From NCBI GenBank assembly GCA_964016885.1, contig OZ024743.1, forward strand, positions 187,737,647-187,801,646: a stretch of DNA of 64,000 bases. Reading direction: 5' to 3'. This DNA is from Eledone cirrhosa (lineage: Eukaryota; Mollusca; Cephalopoda; Octopoda; Eledonidae). The position numbers were made by a program, and so were the translations under genes. The notes under the pieces are model-generated. The model did not search any database, was not told the DNA's origin, and saw only the letters and a program-made list of their open reading frames with translations. Shown here in pieces: positions 45,481 through 47,829 of this stretch (positions are counted from its first letter, which is position 1; each line of letters begins with the position of its first letter).

Positions 45481-45608
45481 ATTTATTCATTGAACCTTGT
45501 TTAACTTTTAAATATATATATATATATATATATATAAAAGACGTAAAATAAGAAAATATTTTTTAAAAAAATTTAAAAAAAATTTTTTACTTACTTACTT
45601 AAATTTTC

Positions 45609-45690
45609 ACTCCAACTAATTAGTTTCTGCAATGGGATAAAGACAGTTACGTAATCCAACTGTCGAGAATTCATTGCGTCATCAGGGAGT
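45609..45690 (-). ncRNA. Type I hammerhead ribozyme, copy 1
   Basis: Identical to the motif described in detail for copy 4 (47570-47651), on the opposite strand. The predicted cut lies between 45614 and 45613. Confidence 0.85.
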
Positions 45691-46166
45691 CTATTCTCAG
45701 TTAAGTCTCCAGGCAATGCGCGGACACTGGCGGCTCATATAAAAATAATAATAATTCGGTAGATCGAACAGCTGGCGAGGACTGGATTCTATGTACCGAA
45801 ATTCTCACTGCTTCAGGTCAAATGGCCGATTCTAAAGAATCAATCACGTGACACAGAGGCTAGTTAGAAGGAATGGGATGGTAAGATGACTGACGCCTAC
45901 TAACACCCCAAAAAATTTTTTTAGAAGTGATTTTGGCAAGTTTGCTCGACAAATCAGTGATTTGGAGATAAATATAGATAATTTAATATATCAACTAACA
46001 TAAGCGCACAGATGCACGCCCATGCTAGCAAATACACAGGTTATGTCATAGTACCTAGGTGGTTCAATGCAGGAGAATGCAGAACAATAATATAAAAGAC
46101 GTAAAATAAGAAAATATTTTTTTAAAAAATTTTAAAAAATTTTTTTACTTACTTACTTAAATTTTC

Positions 46167-46248
46167 ACTCCAACTAATTAGTTTCTGCAATGGGATAAAG
46201 ACAGTTACGTAATCCAACTGTCGAGAATTCATTGCGTCATCAGGGAGT
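46167..46248 (-). ncRNA. Type I hammerhead ribozyme, copy 2
   Basis: Same 82-nt motif as copy 1 with no change that I can see. The predicted cut lies between 46172 and 46171, so a transcript spanning copies 1 and 2 would release a 558-nt unit. Confidence 0.85.
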
Positions 46249-46700
46249 CTATTCTCAGTTAAGTCTCCAGGCAATGCGCGGACACTGGCGGCTCATATAA
46301 AAATAATAATAATTCGGTAGATCGAACAGCTGGCGAGGACTGGATTCTATGTACCGAAATTCTCACTGCTTCAGGTCAAATGGCCGATTCTAAAGAATCA
46401 ATCACGTGACACAGAGGCTAGTTAGAAGGAATGGGATGGTAAGATGACTGACGCCTACTAACACCCCAAAAAATTTTTTTAGAAGTGATTTTGGCAAGTT
46501 TGCTCGACAAATCAGTGATTTGGAGATAAATATAGATAATTTAATATATCAACTAACATAAGCGCACAGATGCACGCCCATGCTAGCAAATACACAGGTT
46601 ATGTCATAGTACCTAGGTGGTTCAATGCAGGAGAATGCAGAACAATAATATAAAAGACGTAAAATAAGAAAATATTTTTTACTTACTTACTTAAATTTTC

Positions 46701-46782
46701 ACTCCAACTAATTAGTTTCTGCAATGGGATAAAGACAGTTACGTAATCCAACTGTCGAGAATTCATTGCGTCATCAGGGAGT
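46701..46782 (-). ncRNA. Type I hammerhead ribozyme, copy 3
   Basis: Same 82-nt motif. With copy 2 it would release a 534-nt unit. Confidence 0.85.
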
Positions 46783-47190
46783 CTATTCTCAGTTAAGTCT
46801 CCAGGCAATGCGCGGACACTGGCGGCTCATATAAAAATAATAATAATTCGGTAGATCGAACAGCTGGCGAGGACTGGATTCTATGTACCGAAATTCTCAC
46901 TGCTTCAGGTCAAATGGCCGATTCTAAAGAATCAATCACGTGACACAGAGGCTAGTTAGAAGGAATGGGATGGTAAGATGACTGACGCCTACTAACACCC
47001 CAAAACATTTTTTTAGAAGTGATTTTGGCAAGTTTGCTCGACAAATCAGTGATTTGGAGATAAATATAGATAATTTAATATATCAACTAACATAAGCGCA
47101 CAGATGCACGCCCATGCTAGCAAATACACAGGTTATGTCATAGTACCTAGGTGGTTCAATGCAGGAGAATGCAGAAGAATAATATAAAAG

Positions 47191-47829
47191 ATTGAACCAC
47201 CTAGGTACTATGACATAACCTGTGTATTTGCTAGCATGGGCGTGCATCTGTGCGCTTATGTTAGTTGATATATTAAATTATCTATATTTATCTCCAAATC
47301 ACTGATTTGTCGAGCAAACTTGCCAAAATCACTTCTAAAAAAAATGTTTTGGGGTGTTAGTAGGCGTCAGTCATCTTACCATCCCATTCCTTCTAACTAG
47401 CCTCTGTGTCACGTGATTGATTCTTTAGAATCGGCCATTTGACCTGAAACAGTGAGAATTTCGGTACATAGAATCCAGTCCTCGCCAGCTGTTCGATCTA
47501 CCGAATTATTATTATTTTTATATGAGCCGCCAGTGTCCGCGCATTGCCTGGAGACTTAACTGAGAATAGACTCCCTGATGACGCAATGAATTCTCGACAG
47601 TTGGATTACGTAACTGTCTTTATCCCATTGCAGAAACTAATTAGTTGGAGTGAAAATTTAAGTAAGTAAGTAAAAAGTTTTTTTAAAAAATATTTTCTTA
47701 TTTTACGTCTTTTATATTATTGTTCTGCATTCTCCTGCATTGAACCACCTAGGTACTATGACATAACCTGTGTATTTGCTAGCATGGGCGTGCATCTGTG
47801 CGCTTATGTTAGTTGATATATTAAATTAT
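47191..47829 (+). repeat. Inverted copies 4 and 5 (partial) of the hammerhead unit
   Basis: From 47191 the unit appears in the opposite orientation. A full copy runs to about 47738, and a second inverted copy (47739-47829) is cut off by a CT/TA microsatellite. Copy 4 shares the AAAACATT variant with copy 3, so the inversion probably arose from copy 3. Copy 4 has its own change (CTGAAACAGTGAG where the others have the complement of CTCACTGCTTCAG). Confidence 0.95.
47570..47651 (+). ncRNA. Type I hammerhead ribozyme, copy 4, with oversized stem II
   Basis: Stem I pairs ACTCC (47570-47574) with GGAGT (47647-47651). The core CTGATGA is at 47575-47581. Stem II pairs GCAATG (47583-47588) with CATTGC (47626-47631), with a second inner helix GACAGTT/AACTGTC. 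The core GAAA is at 47633-47636, and stem III is the self-complementary ACTAATTAGT (47636-47645). The triplet is GUU with the cut after 47646. One flaw is a C-A mismatch (47582/47632) next to the core, present in all four copies. Total stem II length of about 50 nt is unusual. Confidence 0.85.

Follow-up and report, generated by a model that had tools for sequence, protein, structure and literature searches.

The window analysed here, a stretch of 64,000 nt from the genome of the octopod Eledone cirrhosa (contig OZ024743.1), contained a whole head-to-head insertion of a retrozyme-like repeat at 45532-47842, delimited by its unit matches and outer ends. The minus-strand arm (45532-47191) held three units, matched at 45532-46068, 46070-46626 and 46628-47160 with 47162-47191, and its outer 3' end lay at unit position 528 (45532). 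The plus-strand arm (47190-47842) comprised one unit (47190-47737) and a partial one (47739-47842); its outer 3' end, near 47831, was of the 94 type, and the arms overlapped by 2 nt at the head-to-head junction (47190-47191). Unit coordinates (u) follow 47190-47737, in which the predicted hammerhead cut falls at u457/458. Direct copies of the unit were spaced by 558 and 534 nt, and inverted copies were 98–99% identical. The left outer end adjoined an (AT)n repeat (45512-45536) common to the end of a neighbouring Penelope-like element (PLE), and the right outer end a (TC)n(TA)n repeat (47829-47940). No frame of at least 150 aa was present within 45533-47829, leaving the array without a gene, and its GC content (0.279 and 0.364 in 2-kb windows) was as low as that which characterizes animal retrozymes. 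Elsewhere in the window, three short tandem repeats of period 48, alike in unit sequence, occurred at 17515-17608, 22425-22562 and 40938-41033. Plus-strand LINE-type remnants with RVT_1 and Exo_endo_phos matches lay at 4466-5050, 49306-49809 and 51567-52037, the RVT_1 match at 51567 scoring below cut-off.

Hammerhead cores of 82 nt were located on the minus strand at 45609-45690 (unit 1, predicted cut 45613/45614), 46167-46248 (unit 2) and 46701-46782 (unit 3), and on the plus strand at 47570-47651 (predicted cut 47646/47647). All four read ACTCC-CTGATGA-(51 nt)-GAAACTAATTAGTT followed, across the cut, by GGAGT, and 63 identical cores were counted among the loci scanned. The parts were stem I (ACTCC/GGAGT), CTGATGA, GAAA and a GUU cut site in type I arrangement, a stem II segment of 51 nt whose feet are GCAATG/CATTGC, and a stem III formed by the 10-nt palindrome ACTAATTAGT, which would suit action as a dimer. 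Each core thus had the three-way junction of a type I hammerhead, open at stem I, with CUGANGA, GAAA and an NUH cut site. A first-pass annotation had recognized one type I hammerhead-like core in three units on the minus strand and one on the plus strand and had called its stem II unusually large; the direct and inverted copies with identical cores, and the 51-nt segment, agree with it on both points. A hammerhead descriptor returned five sites in the window, namely the four array cores and a separate PLE hammerhead at 44864, vs 0 in 20 mononucleotide-shuffled windows, and this, together with the many genome copies, led to the rejection of a chance motif.

Covariance models gave a different result. 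The Rfam search proposed in the first-pass annotation matched no hammerhead family over the window at gathering scores, and at E ≤ 10 on 45400-47900 it returned six matches, five to microRNA models and one to a snoRNA model, with no hammerhead among them; a long perfect hairpin at the inverted junction (47116-47235) draws the microRNA precursor matches. Pair 10.1/11.1 at the foot of stem II was a nonstandard C.A. In the most stable predicted fold stems I and II were kept, but the CTGAT of the core paired with ATTAG of stem III.

A diverged family (family B, L024:8605-9222) provided a comparison for the repeat of the array (family A). Its stem I was ACTTTC/GGAAGT and its stem II feet were GGAATG/CATTCC, so that each stem was altered on both of its strands, with no change in the core, the cut site, the C.A pair or the palindrome; over the ribozyme the families had the same letter at 59 of 82 aligned positions. 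Family B was found by sequence similarity, and its pairing was therefore not selected for. In this one comparison of two families, stems I and II were kept by compensatory change. The most stable predicted fold of family B shows no hammerhead. Two further hammerhead-like sites with a long stem II and a palindromic stem III, site C (L013:3996; 3975-4320) and site D (L016:8611; 8590-8730), had a mismatch beside the core, U.U in site C and C.A in site D, and a (TA)n repeat came about 190 nt after site C. Pairing in these two sites is no test, because the descriptor picked both.

The genome search suggested in the first-pass annotation, which had taken the joint absence of a model match and of further copies as grounds against its reading, recovered copies in large numbers. 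Exact patterns of the 528-type and 94-type ends occurred 614 and 469 times in the 2.98-Gb genome, with 0 and 2 occurrences of the respective reversed-pattern controls. A 131-nt stretch of the unit gave 40 scored matches among 1048 first-look candidates, and a second stretch 41 among 1481. No relatives of the repeat were matched in viral contigs. Full unit matches ranged from 533 to 584 nt across loci, confirming that the unit is longer than the 150–450 bp reported for animal retrozymes in the accessible parts of PMC7229834, a range and not a strict criterion. Insertion structure was determined in the window and at 20 places of 9.9 kb taken from the best matches, so that these 21 insertions are probably young. 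Fifteen had two arms head to head, both outer ends being 3' ends; the other six had one arm, ending at u528 (L010, L014, L017, L023) or u94 (L027, L028). An internal jump was seen in two arms (L018, L027). One locus (L019:4251-9901) was an array of at least 10 units mixing at least three unit types, and a unit match at C4:291015718 suggests that it continues.

In all 21 insertions neighbouring units were separated by gaps of at most 23 nt, and there is therefore no PLE gene between them. This bears on the reading of the units as pLTR remnants of a PLE that lost its gene, an identity first prompted by the PLE fragment that adjoins the array and dropped once the 21 insertions had been examined. 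PLE pLTRs do bear hammerheads and form tandem and inverted copies (PMC11167929, PMC7761336, PMC3846280, in the parts consulted); however, a gene stood between units in 0 of 21 insertions, and the hammerhead and ends of the resident PLE differ from those of the repeat, which makes such remnants very unlikely. The first-pass annotation had likened the array both to animal retrozymes and to PLE pLTRs. The first likeness was partly borne out, given the closely spaced multi-copy units and the stem changes of family B, and the second was not supported. Retrozyme-like is hence the best label, in view of the lack of a gene between units, the hundreds of copies and the compensatory stems.

The outer ends followed a simple rule. 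One end was out of view in two of the 15 double-arm insertions (L009, running into N, and L019, extending beyond the piece); each of the 13 with both ends visible combined an outer end at u528 with one at u94-105, which places the ends about 70 and 185 nt beyond the hammerhead cut. Outer flanks of these 13 were mostly (AT)n, with CT or TC repeats before (AT)n in L020 and the window and a mixed AT-rich sequence in L026. On contig C1, the listed ends gave 17 pairs of outward neighbours within 15 kb, of which 16 were mixed (9 and 7 by order); the lone 528/528 exception (L049) was a diverged copy whose arms formed a near-palindrome. Taken together, 29 of 30 double-arm insertions (13 examined and 17 on C1, among the matches listed) had mixed ends, where independent choice at the observed frequencies would give 49% (P = 1.7e-8). 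Among the matches listed, 82 of 100 528-type and 54 of 70 94-type ends had no partner, a pattern that loss or mutation of the second end would account for. The arrangement known from PLEs, in which head-to-head arms bear an extension at just one of their 3' ends, was thus found in 29 of 30 double-arm insertions, and the inverted unit in the window is one half of a PLE-style head-to-head insertion and not an incidental inversion.

Units of the same arm differed by a mean of 2.9 substitutions (13 pairs) and units of different insertions by 6.6 (755 pairs; within-insertion pairs taken without L019; permutation, 23 of 5000). Units of opposite arms (mean 6.6, median 4, 7 pairs) were on average no closer than those of different insertions, and the copying of one monomer into both arms by a simple rolling circle was rejected on this ground. 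A satellite-like repeat spread by DNA recombination, its hammerhead arising by chance, would fit the array of at least 10 units and the lack of an Rfam match; it is at odds with the dispersed insertions, whose ends are fixed and whose 5' truncation varies, and with the empty shuffled windows and the stem covariation, and is scarcely credible.

The inner ends of the arms were compared with the predicted cut. Of the 54 arm starts considered, the 21 insertions supplied 36 and L049-L057, chosen for paired ends, supplied 18; four lay exactly at u458 (0.1 expected, P = 3e-6), two of them (L020 and L026) with a possible shift of up to 3 nt owing to junction letters common to both arms, and one fell in the five positions before it. 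Starts also clustered at u463-470 and u482-499, which may reflect an A/T run. A strict genome-wide pattern found nine arms starting at u458 vs three at a control position 4 nt upstream (u454; P = 0.07 for an even split), and two of the nine belonged to one insertion, joined exactly at both cuts (C25:14467767-14467806). These starts are suggestive of cleavage, short of proof. They weigh, as do the compensatory stem changes in family B, against a SINE-like element, mobilised by PLEs, that has lost hammerhead cleavage and whose RNA is copied uncleaved from tandem transcripts. That account draws on the C.A beside the core, the missing Rfam match, the competing fold and the report that hammerhead mutants of an anole PLE still inserted (PMC11167929, available sections), and we consider it unlikely, at perhaps one chance in a handful.

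Beside the array, at 44763-45511 (boundaries set by eye), lay an internally deleted insertion of a probable PLE, itself head to head with two different ends, and exact PLE end motifs were found at 44751 (-) and 45521 (+). It comprised a minus-strand hammerhead distinct from the array core (44806-44872, descriptor site 44864), a reverse-transcriptase fragment (44955-45448) within a minus-strand frame (44955-45470), and a short plus-strand arm (45447-45511) ending at the second PLE end type. Its family is very large, with 16,851 first-look candidates, of which 150 were scored. The fragment had no direct Pfam match, and a protein homologue search with it returned none; its identity was obtained via a longer relative (L035), a 730-aa frame running off the piece. 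L035 itself had no meaningful Pfam match; it had 195 homologues among 8000 candidates scored, and three of the ten scanned matched RVT_1 (P0041, E 9e-6) or a C-terminal GIY-YIG (P0046, E 8e-4; P0098, E 0.005), all below curated cut-offs. The L035 alignment conserved KDHK, FYPSI, YRDD and YIG blocks, which we take to be PLE motifs. A profile search of solved structures gave 0 matches.

Of 20 fetched PLE loci, 15 contained the PLE hammerhead when up to three substitutions were allowed in the pattern, and 11 when the strict descriptor was applied. PLE ends lay about 54 and 150 nt past the PLE cut and were followed by (AT)n, and their exact patterns occurred 1240 and 454 times genome-wide; a fuzzy scan for PLE ends hit plain AT repeats and was excluded from these counts. 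Outward PLE pairs within 15 kb on C1 were mixed in seven of ten cases vs 38% expected (P = 0.04), the others being two t1/t1 (10.6 and 2.6 kb apart) and one t2/t2 (1.3 kb). The PLE and the repeat thus have an insertion plan in common, with a looser one-of-each rule in the PLE. A PLE carrying the end sequences of the repeat was not identified, those of the resident PLE being different. Another PLE-like hammerhead, with a GCAGT-type stem I, occurred in insertion flanks at L018:830 (-), L022:7300 (-) and L026:3173 (-).

The lack of a partner PLE with the same end sequences and the LINE-type reverse-transcriptase remnants in the window could instead point to a retrozyme-like element moved by another enzyme, e.g., that of a LINE, its PLE likeness coming from a common preference for (AT)n. 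Against this, the resident PLE also has head-to-head arms and two discrete ends beyond a hammerhead, and the insertion form matches published PLE structure (PMC3846280, PMC11167929, parts available); we regard movement by such an enzyme as improbable.

The repeat is best explained as a non-autonomous retrozyme-like element moved by PLEs, a reading for which we put the probability at about 0.57. It builds on the observed anatomy, the two end positions, the one-of-each rule, the (AT)n flanks, the similar plan of the PLE and the stem covariation between two families. Arrays would be transcribed, and the type I hammerhead of each unit would cut the RNA into pieces of one or more units, and these might be ligated into circles. 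PLE protein, acting in trans, would take the repeat RNA and open an (AT)n site, and reverse transcription would be primed from each of the two DNA strands at its own fixed internal RNA site, the sites lying about 70 and 185 nt beyond the cut, presumably on both strands at the same time. Each cDNA would extend toward the RNA 5' end, sometimes stopping at the end made by the hammerhead, as the suggestive starts at the cut would have it, and sometimes spanning several units, before the two cDNAs were joined head to head. Counting against movement by PLEs in this manner are the absence of an Rfam hammerhead match, the C.A pair and the fold competing with the core; the looser rule in the PLE, the lack of a PLE with the same end sequences and the opposite-arm units being no closer; and the control of three vs nine for starts at the cut (P = 0.07).

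A wider proposal, made tentatively and at rather less than even odds, is that animal retrozymes are parasites of PLEs and that PLE integration is two-ended, one RNP priming each strand at its own RNA site and the cDNAs running to or towards a hammerhead-made 5' end before being joined head to head. Work on an anole PLE, as given in the consulted parts of PMC11167929, has shown that the protein cuts and extends both strands and prefers AT-rich DNA, and that reverse transcription begins at two internal RNA sites, which define the tail. There, start sites were alike on both strands, hammerhead mutations left insertion in vitro unaffected, the hammerhead needed protein to cut, and RNA ends at the cut were absent; start sites, mutants and protein-dependent cut do not favour the proposed model, and the inserting mutants and absent RNA ends also count against the movement of the repeat by PLEs as set out above.

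PLEs and LINEs have been named as candidate movers of animal retrozymes (PMC7229834; review PMC11722881), and a link between retrozymes and PLEs was proposed earlier from common features and co-occurrence (PMC7229834, PMC7761336, PMC11722881), according to the available parts of these papers. In the present case the PLE-like signature sits in the retrozyme insertions themselves. As far as our searches reach, such insertion-level evidence is new within the open-licence literature, which misses most subscription papers. The one-of-each-end rule makes a sharp claim about PLE integration that can be tested, and, if the two-ended reading is true, the hammerhead would set the 5' limit of the cDNA and the ribozymes of PLEs and retrozymes would have a role in integration.

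The repeat was compared with known systems, as far as the cited papers were accessible. Like animal non-LTR retrozymes, it is tandem, low in GC and multi-copy, and each unit has a single type I hammerhead; most loop-contact nucleotides are likewise missing in a mussel retrozyme family, and an axolotl hammerhead with a U.U mismatch at the foot of stem II retains weak cleavage (PMC7229834). It differs from them in its 51-nt stem II segment, head-to-head insertions and two end types; the terms 'inverted' and 'head-to-head' are absent from PMC7229834. Plant LTR retrozymes resemble it in unit size (near 600–800 nt) but have type III hammerheads, LTRs, a PBS and a PPT (PMC7229834). The minimal hammerheads of PLEs and Terminons are like the core in type I topology, short stem III and tandem copies, yet in most cases are without the non-conserved portion of helix III, whereas the core has a 10-nt palindromic stem III and a long stem II (PMC7761336). 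Published PLE insertions resemble those of the repeat in their head-to-head inverted copies, a tail at one 3' end, two internal initiation sites past the hammerhead and AT-rich targets (PMC3846280, PMC11167929), whereas the repeat has no RT-endonuclease gene and an extension of about 115 nt vs 31 bp and 30–40 bp. In bdelloid Penelope elements an inverted pLTR completes the insert, with an optional 31-bp tail at one inverted pLTR; pLTRs by themselves appear to have sufficed to carry an unrelated gene in trans, and the head-to-head form was tentatively put down to self-priming, its origin being left open (PMC3846280). Seen beside these systems, the repeat is a retrozyme-like element; its hammerhead is unusual, its unit is long and its insertions bear a Penelope-like signature.
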